This document shows, piece after piece, positions 2,771 through 50,840 of a stretch of DNA of 64,000 nt (positions within the stretch are counted from its first letter, which is position 1; every line of letters begins with the position of its first letter). This stretch comes from Tyzzerella sp. Lineage in GTDB: Bacteria > Bacillota > Clostridia > Lachnospirales > Lachnospiraceae. A program made the translations under genes and the position numbers. The DNA lies in contig JAFTWA010000016.1 in assembly GCA_017465565.1 (NCBI GenBank), positions 27,853-91,852 of the forward strand, given 5' to 3'. The notes beneath the pieces were generated by a model. The model saw nothing but the letters and a program-made list of their open reading frames with translations. It was not told where the DNA came from and ran no database searches.

Positions 2771-3868
2771 CTATCTAAGCCAGTCTGTTCCGTAACGCAG
2801 TGCTAACATATCGCTGATTACAATTGCCGTAATACTGTCTACTACCACACGCGCTCTGTGAATAATTGCCGGGTCATGTCTTCCCTGGATTTGGAAAGTC
2901 ACATTTTCTTTTGTATCCATATTCACCGTTTCCTGCGCTTTATAAATGGATGGAGTCGGCTTAATCACAGTATTAAATAGGATTGGCATGCCATTTGTAA
3001 TGCCGCCGTTAATCCCACCGTTATTGTTGGTCTTTGTCGTAACCTTTCCATCTTCTATTTCAAATGGGTCGTTTGCTTCGCTGCCTTTCATCTCCGCAAA
3101 TGCAAATCCCTTACCAAATTCAATTCCTTTCACAGCTGGAACACTGAAAATTCCATGTGCAAGCATGCTTTCCATGGTGTCAAACCAAGGCTCTCCAACG
3201 CCCGCTGGAATACCTGTAACAACTGTCTCCAAGATGCCTCCAACACTGTCACCTTCATTTGCTGCCGCTTCCATGTATGCATGTATTTCTTCTGCTGCTT
3301 TTTCATCCAGCACTGGAAAAATCAAATCATTCACCTTTGCAAGCTCTTCCTCATAATTTGTAAATGGCGTATCTTTGATTGTTCCACATTGCTTGATGTG
3401 GGTTCCAATATGAATTCCTTTTTTCTTTAATGCATCGATTAAGACTGCTCCCACTGCTACGATTGGAGTTGTAATTCTTCCTGAAAAATGTCCGCCGCCG
3501 CGATAATCTGCAAATCCATGATATTTTTCGATTGCTGTATAATCCGCATGCCCTGGACGCATCAAATCTTTTGTTTTGGAATAGTCTTTACTCTTTGTAT
3601 TATTGTTTTCAAATAAAATGCAAATCGGAGTCCCTGTAGTTTTCCCCTCAAAAACACCACTCACAATATGAGGTTCGTCCGTCTCCACACGCTGTGTCGA
3701 AATCTTTCCGTGTGGCTTTCTCAGATTCAACTGCTTTCGCATAAAATCTAAATCCACTTCGATTCCCGGTGCAAGTCCGTCGATAACCGCGCCAATCTCC
3801 GCTCCATGACTTTCACCAAATAGGGTTACTGTAATACTATTTCCCAATACATTCTTCACGCTATTCAC
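2771..3868 (-). CDS. aroC: Chorismate synthase
   Basis: Catalyses the last shikimate step, anti-1,4-elimination of phosphate from EPSP, using reduced FMN. Motifs in order are LFGESHG (residues 16-22), QLNLRKPHGK, RPGHADYTAIEKY, RGGGHFSGR and, near the C terminus, GRHDP. The 365-residue length is standard. No ATG is available; the GTG at 3868 overlaps the aroB stop by 8 bp but lies only 1 nt after its GGAG. A second GTG three codons on (3859) has 10-nt spacing to the same GGAG and may be the real start. Either way it is translationally coupled to aroB. Confidence 0.95.
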   Translation of the reverse strand: MNSVKNVLGNSITVTLFGESHGAEIGAVIDGLAPGIEVDLDFMRKQLNLRKPHGKISTQRVETDEPHIVSGVFEGKTTGTPICILFENNNTKSKDYSKTKDLMRPGHADYTAIEKYHGFADYRGGGHFSGRITTPIVAVGAVLIDALKKKGIHIGTHIKQCGTIKDTPFTNYEEELAKVNDLIFPVLDEKAAEEIHAYMEAAANEGDSVGGILETVVTGIPAGVGEPWFDTMESMLAHGIFSVPAVKGIEFGKGFAFAEMKGSEANDPFEIEDGKVTTKTNNNGGINGGITNGMPILFNTVIKPTPSIYKAQETVNMDTKENVTFQIQGRHDPAIIHRARVVVDSITAIVISDMLALRYGTDWLR

Positions 3869-4865
3869 GCTCCAATCTTGCTAAAACCTGTTCCATCGGC
3901 CATTCTTCAATTTGTCCGTCTCCAATTTCTGACACGAACACAACAGAACAGTTTTTATTACTTGCTTTTTTATCATGCGTAATTGCTTCTTTTACTTCTT
4001 CTATACTAAACTCATCAGACTCCGGCACATTAAATCCTAAGCGTTCATAAATCTGAATCAGTTTCTCTTTTACTTCATCACTACTCATGTACAGCATTCC
4101 CAGTGCAACACATTCTCCGTGTAAATACTTTCCTTTTGCCGCACTTTCGAATCCATGTCCAATGGTATGTCCAAAGTTTAAAATCTTGCGAAGATGACTT
4201 TCCTTCTCATCCTGCTCAACCACATATTTCTTTACAAGCAATGCTTTCTCTATAATGTAATCTAATTTATCTTTCCATTCACCATTTAAGAACAATTCAA
4301 ATAACCCAGGGTCACTGGTTGCTCCCATTTTAATTGCTTCTATTAATCCATTTACAATCTGGCGTTCTGATAAACTATTCAGTGTATCTGGGTCAATCAG
4401 AACTGCCTTTGGCTGATGGAATGCACCAATAATATTTTTGATTCCCGCTAAATTTACCGCTGTCTTCCCACCGATAGAAGAATCTACCTGAGATAATACT
4501 GTAGTTGGAACATTATAAAAATCAATACCGCGCATATAAAGAGAAGCCACAAAACCACCAAGGTCTCCAACAACTCCACCGCCCACTGCAACCACACAGT
4601 CCTTGCGGCTAAACTGGAATTCCAACATATCTGTCAGAATCTCTTCTGCTGTCTGAAGGGATTTGCTGCCTTCACCTTGTGGTACGACTTTGATATATGC
4701 TTTTTTACATTGCTGTGCAATCTTTTCTGCGTATTGAATCGGAACTCCCTCATCTGTAATAATCATTACGCTACGATTCAGTTTCAGATATTCATTTGCT
4801 TTTGCAAGAATTCCTCTCTCCAATTCGATATTGTAACTATTTGCTCCTAATTCCATTCTAATCAT
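3861..4865 (-). CDS. aroB: 3-dehydroquinate synthase
   Basis: Converts DAHP to 3-dehydroquinate, the second shikimate step; NAD- and divalent-metal-dependent. Motifs are GGGVVGDLGGFVAS (about 94-107), QVDSSIGGKTAVN near 129, the metal-binding NFGHTIGHGFE near 230 and HGECVALGM near 248. At 334 residues it is slightly shorter than E. coli AroB (362). ATG with GGAGG 7 nt upstream. It is the first structural gene of the operon. The 200-nt leader carries a consensus promoter, an aromatic-rich leader peptide and an attenuator whose T-run ends about 15 nt before this start. Confidence 0.96.
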   Translation of the reverse strand: MIRMELGANSYNIELERGILAKANEYLKLNRSVMIITDEGVPIQYAEKIAQQCKKAYIKVVPQGEGSKSLQTAEEILTDMLEFQFSRKDCVVAVGGGVVGDLGGFVASLYMRGIDFYNVPTTVLSQVDSSIGGKTAVNLAGIKNIIGAFHQPKAVLIDPDTLNSLSERQIVNGLIEAIKMGATSDPGLFELFLNGEWKDKLDYIIEKALLVKKYVVEQDEKESHLRKILNFGHTIGHGFESAAKGKYLHGECVALGMLYMSSDEVKEKLIQIYERLGFNVPESDEFSIEEVKEAITHDKKASNKNCSVVFVSEIGDGQIEEWPMEQVLARLERE

Positions 4866-4880
4866 TGTGATTCCTCCGAA

Positions 4881-4917
4881 TAAAAAAACCGATATTTGTT
4901 ACATTCAAATACCGGTT
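4881..4917 (-). terminator. Attenuator terminator in the aro leader
   Basis: On the minus strand, 12-nt arms at 4906-4917 and 4887-4898 form a stem (one G-U pair) around a 7-nt loop, followed by seven T. It lies between the leader-peptide stop and the aroB ribosome-binding site, so it is a regulated terminator and not an operon end. Its 5' arm plus loop (4898-4917) is also complementary to 4948-4965. Confidence 0.88.
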
Positions 4918-4965
4918 TGCACTCTTTTTATAAAATATATGGTGTGTATCGGATATGAACGTAAC
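4898..4965 (-). promoter_or_regulatory. Antiterminator of the aro leader
   Basis: RNA from 4948-4965 can pair with 4898-4917, the 5' arm and loop of the terminator, over about 16-17 bp with one G-U pair, one bulge and two mismatches. This is mutually exclusive with the terminator. The distal strand begins 5 nt after the leader-peptide stop codon (4970-4972), so a ribosome waiting at the stop would mask it. A stalled ribosome at the aromatic codons would leave it free. Confidence 0.8.
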
Positions 4966-4969
4966 AAAA

Positions 4970-5044
4970 TTAACCAACGCTAAAATAAAAGCCTTGGCTA
5001 TAAAAGAAAAAGTATGAATTTACATTTTTCTTTGTCTGCATCAT
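4970..5044 (-). CDS. Aro-operon leader peptide, Phe/Tyr-rich (24 aa)
   Basis: A 24-codon reading frame starts with two ATG codons (5044, 5041) behind AGGATGG (5053-5059) and ends at TAA (4970-4972). Residues 11-21 read YFFFYSQGFYF, so eight of these eleven are Phe or Tyr (five Phe, three Tyr). It lies on the transcript from the 5076-5103 promoter and is followed by alternative hairpins. This is the architecture of ribosome-mediated attenuation as in enterobacterial pheA and pheST leaders. The peptide should have no function beyond sensing charged tRNA-Phe/Tyr; function is inferred from layout. Confidence 0.85.
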   Translation of the reverse strand: MMQTKKNVNSYFFFYSQGFYFSVG

Positions 5045-5075
5045 ATCGGTTACCATCCTGTTTAAACTTGTTTTT

Positions 5076-5103
5076 ATTATATCATTGTCATTTTATTTGT
5101 CAA
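5076..5103 (-). promoter_or_regulatory. Sigma-A promoter of the aro operon
   Basis: Perfect -35 TTGACA (5098-5103) and -10 TATAAT (5076-5081) with 16-bp spacing on the minus strand. Predicted transcription starts near 5068, giving a leader of about 200 nt before aroB. Confidence 0.88.
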
Positions 5104-5194: not shown

Positions 5195-5267
<73 letters not shown>

Positions 5268-50670: not shown

Positions 50671-50840
50671 AAGAAACTGATTTGGTTTCATACCTTTCAC
50701 AATGTAGGACAAAAAACATTGTCGGATACAAATATGCTTCGCAATGTGCAACAAAGAAACATTGCCCGATACAAAAACCTTTCACAATGTAGGACAGAAA
50801 ACATTGTCAAGCCCTATTGCCAGCAATAGGGCTTATTATT
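50671..50840 (+). ncRNA. Type III antitoxin-like repeat RNA
   Basis: Three tandem repeats: 50694-50736 (43 nt), 50737-50778 (42 nt) and a partial 50779-50808 (30 nt, 29 of 30 identical to the first). Each has arms ACAATGT and ACATTGT. In repeat 2 the outer A-U pair becomes G-C on both sides, a covariation that supports a folded RNA. A 12-bp terminator hairpin (50809-50834) with a weak U-tract follows, and then the toxin-like gene. This is the layout of ToxI/CptI-type antitoxins, whose repeats are cut by the toxin. Confidence 0.75.
50809..50840 (+). terminator. Leaky terminator between repeat RNA and toxin gene
   Basis: AAGCCCTATTGC (50809-50820) pairs with GCAATAGGGCTT (50823-50834), followed by ATTATTTC. 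In type III systems such a terminator sets the ratio of antitoxin RNA to toxin mRNA. Confidence 0.8.

Follow-up and report, generated by a model that had tools for sequence, protein, structure and literature searches.

Leader-peptide attenuation is a classical mechanism of transcriptional control, as in the pheA attenuator of the enterobacteria, where a Phe-rich leader ORF is combined with a terminator and an antiterminator and the choice between the two structures is coupled to translation. In the annotation of E. coli K-12 pheL directly precedes pheA, and Rfam 15 contains the enterobacterial Phe_leader, presumably under the number RF01859. In the Clostridia, including many gut bacteria, amino acid control is usually ascribed to T-boxes; clostridial cases may be listed in the attenuation survey that Lopatovskaya, Seliverstov and Lyubetsky published in 2010. 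According to the accessible portions of the respective articles, His leader-peptide attenuation operates in the Firmicutes at the hisS*/hisZ genes of Bacillus, where T-boxes are otherwise usual (PMC2965389), the tyrosine operon of the B. cereus group is under T-box control (PMC2494555), the predicted element uORFC-13-1 of Acholeplasma and environmental DNA carries at least one Phe codon (PMC8632094), and a leader peptide with a Phe-Tyr-Phe stretch has been predicted for aroF of C. glutamicum (PMC4046766). Searches of the open-licence literature yielded no account of clostridial shikimate genes preceded by a Phe/Tyr leader, and the available portions of PMC1262725 and PMC2494555 make no mention of such a leader in this class. 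The leader described here thus appears to combine a known mechanism with an RNA family that is apparently undescribed and uncatalogued.

The leader lies in a 64,000-nucleotide stretch of a Tyzzerella sp. genome, analysed as a whole and referred to below as the window, and all attenuator elements and the operon are on its minus strand. We regard it as highly probable, judging from sequence and comparison, that this region is a ribosome-mediated transcription attenuator sensing charged tRNA-Phe and tRNA-Tyr. The first gene that it would regulate is aroB, encoding 3-dehydroquinate synthase (3861-4865; NCBIfam TIGR01357, above cut-off), which overlaps aroC, encoding chorismate synthase (2771-3868; TIGR00033, above cut-off). 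After a gap of 16 nt follows aroA, encoding 3-phosphoshikimate 1-carboxyvinyltransferase (1546-2754), whose best match was TIGR01356 with 267 bits, under the cut-off of 287, and which overlaps the last gene, encoding a DAHP synthase (DAHPS) of the AroFGH type (501-1556; TIGR00034, above cut-off). In most relatives examined the gene next to the leader is instead a B. subtilis-type DAHP synthase, for which no match was found in the window genome (89% complete), and we therefore infer that the operon was rebuilt around an attenuator that stayed in place.

Upstream of aroB is a sigma-70-type promoter (5076-5103), with TTGACA at 5103-5098 and TATAAT at 5081-5076 separated by a 16-nt spacer with a TG. 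The first-pass annotation had called this promoter consensus, and all 12 bases indeed match; a similar promoter was seen by eye in all five of the other genus genomes that share the window's aroB. The ribosome-binding site and start codon (5041-5059) comprise an imperfect Shine-Dalgarno sequence, AGGATGG, at 5059-5053, the ATG at 5044, and a stretch designated segment 1 (GAUAUGA, 5047-5041). From the ATG to a TAA at 4970 runs an ORF of 24 codons (4970-5044) encoding MMQTKKNVNSYFFFYSQGFYFSVG, which by its sequence is translatable and rich in codons for products of the pathway. Residues 11-21 had been described as mostly Phe/Tyr, and 8 of these 11 are so (5 Phe and 3 Tyr in the leader as a whole, with the control codons within 5014-4982), a density that no shuffled version of the leader attained among 5,000 in which dinucleotides were preserved. 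Inside the ORF we further recognised a hairpin absent from the earlier account, P1 (CCAAGGC/GCGUUGG, 4974-4997), with the codons for FYF in its loop. A tRNA gene (5195-5267, plus strand) is divergent from the attenuator, and the five other genomes with a window-type aroB have, judging from their sequences, a similar tRNA upstream of that gene.

The antiterminator strand, segment 2, occupies 4951-4968 and starts 2 nt past the leader stop; the first-pass annotation was correct as to its existence and placed it at 4948-4965, 5 nt after the stop, a position that has been revised. Its partner, 4913-4895, takes in most of the terminator 5' arm, the partner that had been proposed, and extends across the loop into the beginning of the 3' arm. 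The terminator hairpin itself (segments 3 and 4, 4886-4918) has 13 bp and a loop at 4905-4899, and with the U-tract at 4882-4888, read from the sequence, constitutes a predicted intrinsic terminator between the ORF and aroB. The fold of the whole leader had a z-score of -5.0, and none of 200 shuffles was as stable.

A transcription start at this promoter, translation of the leader, termination in the cell and a response to Phe and Tyr would together give the following scheme. RNA polymerase would transcribe the leader whilst a ribosome translates the 24-codon peptide. Were Phe or Tyr short, the ribosome would stall between codons 11 and 21 and leave segment 2 free to pair with 4913-4895, so that the terminator would be blocked and aroB-aroC-aroA-DAHPS transcribed. 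Were both plentiful, the ribosome would arrive at the stop and cover the start of segment 2, and the terminator would form before aroB. If the leader were untranslated, the start-codon region may hold segment 2, a state that would favour termination. The probable role of P1 is to set the timing of the ribosome relative to the polymerase.

The claim that a ribosome at the stop or at the Phe/Tyr codons selects terminator or antiterminator, respectively, was borne out when the RNA free downstream of the ribosome was folded with assumed footprints of 13, 14, 15, 16, 17 and 18 nt. With the 16-nt footprint, measured from the first base of the A-site codon to the start of the free RNA, folding predicted the antiterminator at each of codons 11-21 and at codon 22, and the terminator at codons 23, 24 and 25. 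Under all six footprints codons 11-21 gave the antiterminator and codons 24-25 the terminator, and the predicted switch point for the other five lay within one codon of that for 16 nt. The further proposal of a 7-bp pairing of the 1:2 type between 5041-5047 and 4952-4958 was likewise upheld: the pairing is exact and is present in the predicted pre-terminator fold (z -4.2), in which, as long as the terminator has not been transcribed, the region around the start codon is paired to 4958-4952 and to bases further on, and it was supported by the swap test over 27 leaders described below.

For the swap tests, in which the pairing of each element with its own partner was compared with its pairing with partners from other leaders, 32 leaders were tabulated, the terminators of two being redone. 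L124 and L270 (terminator mis-called) and the near-duplicates L003, L166 and L090 were left out, and the permutation set comprised 27 leaders including L266; a set of 26 without L266 gave a like outcome. Across the 27 leaders, none of 100,000 permutations was as good as the pairing of segment 2 with its own terminator arm, and the same was found for the start region with segment 2 (0 of 100,000), for which the window's class alone (7 sequences) gave 1,245 of 100,000. Segment 2 of the window ranked its own terminator first of 30, in both row and column; the own terminator was in the top three of its row for 15 of the 30 leaders and lower for the rest, with L015 placing it 28th. Five of the six control pairings were not extreme (4,693 to 49,970 of 100,000), and the sixth, in which the Phe/Tyr region was paired to the post segment, was intermediate (33 of 100,000 for the 27 leaders and 13 of 50,000 in the 26-leader run), a value that we attribute to P1.

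Covariation was evaluated in an alignment of the nine alignable leaders of the window's class (A2), from which a covariance model, R1, was also built. In A2, both partners have changed in 8 of the 18 P1 and terminator pairs, a count reached by 7 of 500 shuffles, and the covariation score for the two hairpins was reached by none of 500. A larger alignment (A4) contained 21 leaders, two antisense rows of A3 having been removed beforehand, and in it two-sided changes are seen in 15 of 17 P1 and terminator pairs (matched by 0 of 500 shuffles), namely all 6 for P1 and 9 of the 11 aligned pairs for the terminator, and 96.1% of the cells are paired, although 12 of the 21 leaders had been selected with the model, which is biased in favour of these two hairpins. 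The antiterminator helix, which is absent from the covariance model, is paired in 82.3% of the A4 cells; 4 of its 8 pairs change on both sides, a count that 40 of 500 shuffles reached, and its covariation score exceeded those of all 500. The covariation of the antiterminator is thus milder than that of the hairpins in the 21-leader alignment. A Phe/Tyr-rich ORF is present not only in the window but also in genome G007 and in 19 other leaders of A4. The first-pass annotation had looked to a covariance search for support, and the search returned both compensatory stem changes and recurrent Phe/Tyr codons with changing flanks, a combination that favours attenuation, whilst folding, the swap test and covariation agree in having the antiterminator exclude the terminator.

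Ten genomes of the genus were sampled, six of which, including that of the window, have a closely related aroB (81-100% identity). The complete device is present in two of the six, the window and G007. The G007 leader is the same leader at 80% DNA identity, with an unchanged frame, all 8 Phe/Tyr residues kept and one added, and compensatory changes in both P1 and the terminator. Between the two leaders there are 6 amino acid changes and 3 silent ones, and the protein-level constraint outside the Phe/Tyr codons is therefore weak. By eye, G004, G006 and G002 have kept the promoter and a terminator-like hairpin, have no ORF left and have lost all or most of segment 2, with U-tracts that look weaker at two of the three hairpins; G003 has the promoter alone, with neither leader nor hairpin. 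The corresponding regions upstream of aroB (L037/L117, L038/L118, L121 and L119) reveal that the losses end at differing points, promoter and terminator-like hairpin being close together in three of these leaderless loci and only a promoter remaining in one.

Homologues lacking the leader had been expected to count against the attenuator, and within the genus they do occur (4 of 6), whilst complete leaders are found in other families of the class, for which reason the absences in the genus are read as secondary losses. These losses show the attenuator to be dispensable, and they illustrate, within one genus, how attenuation disappears. They also bear on the possibility that the leader is a relic, with attenuation being lost and the operon either constitutive or subject to a fixed partial termination: a lack of the leader in four of the six genomes with a window-type aroB, three of which keep promoter and hairpin, is what such decay would leave, but in the window and G007 every part is intact, the Phe/Tyr codons are conserved and the changes are compensatory, and we consider this explanation very unlikely for them. 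In the four remaining genomes, aroB has 48-51% identity to that of the window; in one of these, G009, aroB is preceded by an unrelated Phe/Tyr leader, MRMNYLVSVFYFYR, together with a U-tract hairpin, and inspection by eye and the ORF scan described below found no such leader before aroB in the other three. Weak genus matches at L367, L369 and L370 were found to hold no leader.

The leader ORF of the window ends earlier than that of its relatives, as seen by comparing GTT GGT TTA TTT TGC TAT of L166 with GTT GGT TAA TTT TGT TAC of the window. In the relatives the ORF runs through segment 2, whereas in the window and G007 the stop precedes it; the window copy therefore has a shortened peptide, and it heads an aroB operon. 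That segment 2 has been kept in these two leaders though untranslated favours a role for the RNA over one for the peptide. This observation is pertinent to the idea of an arrest peptide, in which the nascent chain would sense free Phe or Tyr and stall the ribosome near the stop codon, much as TnaC does in sensing tryptophan. A peptide motif like [FY]YFSAGxFCC does recur in many members of the family, yet the bases that encode it also make up P1 and the antiterminator strand, each of which shows paired changes, and in the window and G007 the part coding for FCC falls after the stop while the RNA strand is still kept; a peptide-based mechanism accordingly strikes us as very improbable in comparison with ribosome-mediated attenuation.

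Leaders of this kind are found well beyond the genus. An ORF scan was made of 80 aroB loci and 35 further loci, using intergenic gaps of at least 90 nt, and in this sample, which includes relatives and in which not all gaps are independent, 13 of the 104 gaps that precede aromatic genes held a Shine-Dalgarno-preceded ORF with at least 6 Phe/Tyr in 8 codons, versus 0 of 121 before other genes. At a threshold of at least 5 the counts were 17 of 104 (87 of the 104 holding fewer than 5) versus 1 of 121, and nine other amino acid pairs gave no contrast of that size in the scan. In the window's GTDB family, 10 of 30 DAHPS loci had a leader with at least 5 Phe/Tyr (L235, L239, L242, L244, L245, L246, L248, L250, L251 and L252), as did 3 of 30 pheA loci (L266, L268 and L270), two of the 30 having no assignable gene. 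The plain ORF scan undercounts, in that the leader of L249 (genome G072) was found by R1 alone (as L301).

When R1 was run against 299 genomes of the GTDB family, 20 gave a match at E values up to 0.01. The 18 places with E <1e-5 consisted of 6 training leaders and 12 new ones, and each of the 12 had a Shine-Dalgarno-preceded ORF with at least 5 Phe/Tyr in 8 codons (4 in L316). Eleven of the 12 precede DAHPS or pheA; at the twelfth, L312, the next gene matched no reference used. At L312 a leader of the window's class (1501-1659) adjoins a gene (1659-2645) that is not evidently aromatic and which, on reading its sequence, we take to resemble HMG-CoA-lyase-like aldolases. Among 341 genomes of the class, 25 besides that of the window were matched at E values up to 0.001, all from other families, and the 19 of these that were examined all had an ORF with at least 5 Phe/Tyr in 8 codons, followed by a recognised gene for DAHPS in 16 cases, pheA in 2 and tyrA in 1. 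Whilst the codon richness of such matches is partly built in, because the model covers the Phe/Tyr codons, their gene context is independent of the model, and 30 of the 31 new loci examined precede DAHPS synthase, pheA or tyrA. To judge from these matches, the family is one that occurs in several families of Clostridia, mostly before DAHPS synthase; the first-pass annotation had treated the leader as a single case, and that picture gives way to a wider family of which the window's aroB leader is an atypically placed member. As the model finds the element across families, control of aromatic synthesis should be predictable from genomes.

A weak R1 match before pheA with a leader (L314, E 0.004) was left out of the counts; two others (L313 and L315) had no notable Phe/Tyr leader, and the matches L317 and L318 were antisense reads over terminators. 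An early supposition that the leader is confined to the genus was dropped after the ORF scans and the R1 matches elsewhere. A DNA pattern for QGFYF occurred at 30 places in 397 genomes, versus 4 for a reversed control; since 22 of the 30 belong to frames that are long or open (some 20 of them presumably resembling EAL-domain proteins with QGYYFSKP) and only two are leaders (L165 and L166), the pattern was rejected as evidence. Long proteins with QGYYFSKP-like motifs (L147-L174) share the bases of the leader motif and are a trap for motif searches.

Several other leaders came to light in these surveys. A second design (L064, L081, L085, L110, L015 and L076), preceding DAHPS, pheA or an aminotransferase gene, has a GGACTGTCC-like stretch directly after the Phe/Tyr codons which, by eye, can pair with a GGACAGTCC-like stretch overlapping the terminator arm. 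Leaders of an AAYYFYFYF type (L239, L242, L244, L245 and L246) precede DAHPS, most of them with a TTTTTGCTG-like strand, and this group was not among the R1 matches in the GTDB family. At L078, on the minus strand and opposite aroB, a Tyr-rich leader (1 Phe, 5 Tyr) lies about 198 nt before DAHPS.

In one genus the amino acid content of the leaders varies with the genes that follow. Its two species sampled, G105 and G401, have two leader copies each. The Phe-rich copies (9 Phe and 3 Tyr in G105, 11 Phe and 5 Tyr in G401) head DAHPS-aroB-aroA-aroC-pheA, and the other copies, with no Phe and 7 (G105) or 8 (G401) Tyr, head DAHPS-tyrA. Genes were named by BLAST against references, tyrA and this pheA by reading of their sequences, and we take the former to encode prephenate dehydrogenase and the latter chorismate mutase/prephenate dehydratase. 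Four operons with both tyrA and pheA (L302, L310, L246 and L239) have mixed leaders. So does L242 (4 Phe, 3 Tyr), where pheA was seen and no tyrA within 5.8 kb, and the relation between codons and branch is for that reason not strict. Codon identity follows the branch clearly in one genus alone, where it is in keeping with what codon-specific sensing would predict, and the pairs of Phe-rich and Tyr-without-Phe copies offer a natural test of such sensing. The window leader, with its 5 Phe and 3 Tyr codons, should respond to both amino acids.

With somewhat better than even confidence, we favour the broader view that these leaders form an uncatalogued, class-wide RNA family of Clostridia that controls the entry to the shikimate pathway, and in which the Phe/Tyr content of the leader has evolved to suit the branch controlled. 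Were this so, mixed codons would mark common operons, Phe-rich leaders an operon ending in pheA, and leaders with Tyr and no Phe the DAHPS-tyrA operon; one RNA design, adapted through exchanged codons and transferred from operon to operon, would be the equivalent of what the enterobacteria achieve with isozyme-specific control of DAHPS synthase.

Searches against Rfam returned no family for the window leader or for the leaders of 14 loci (E values up to 0.5); the enterobacterial Phe_leader model was without a match in the same leaders, and the T-box model RF00230 had none in the window or the leaders of the 14 loci. Elsewhere in the window (50688-50807, plus strand) lies a match to RF02920, Fusobacteriales-1 RNA, a cis-regulatory RNA carrying another phylum's name (93.8 bits versus a gathering threshold of 52.1). 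When 20 DAHPS loci were scanned with Rfam, Phe/Tyr leaders (9, by the ORF scan) outnumbered T-boxes (1, at L253). Control by a T-box or other ligand-binding riboswitch, with the Phe/Tyr ORF incidental, is the least probable of the explanations weighed here, for although T-boxes are common at amino acid genes of the Bacillota and L253 has one before DAHPS, the window leader and those of the 14 loci are without an Rfam match, the ORF rich in Phe/Tyr turns up repeatedly while its flanks change, and its Phe or Tyr content tracks the genes in two species.

Among known systems, the T-box (RF00230) shares with the proposed attenuator the control of Bacillota amino acid genes by tRNA charging, and accounts for 1 of 20 DAHPS loci and not for the window leader. 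The hisS*/hisZ leaders of Bacillus, as far as the available text describes them, represent the same kind of attenuation, directed at histidine and other genes (PMC2965389). Compared by description alone, from the accessible part of the source, uORFC-13-1 resembles the window family in that a uORF with Phe is predicted ahead of a terminator, with a DAHPS synthase gene, aroF, following (PMC8632094). The aroF leader of C. glutamicum also stands before a DAHPS synthase gene, but belongs to the Actinobacteria and, in the accessible part of its source, is without a described comparative family (PMC4046766). With the enterobacterial pheA attenuator the window family has in common the short leader ORF, the terminator before the structural gene, the antiterminator and, as predicted, the coupling to translation. 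It differs in its Bacillota host, in having no match in Rfam, in usually targeting DAHPS synthase, in mixing Phe and Tyr codons, in bearing a covarying hairpin inside the ORF, and in that most of its ORFs run through segment 2.
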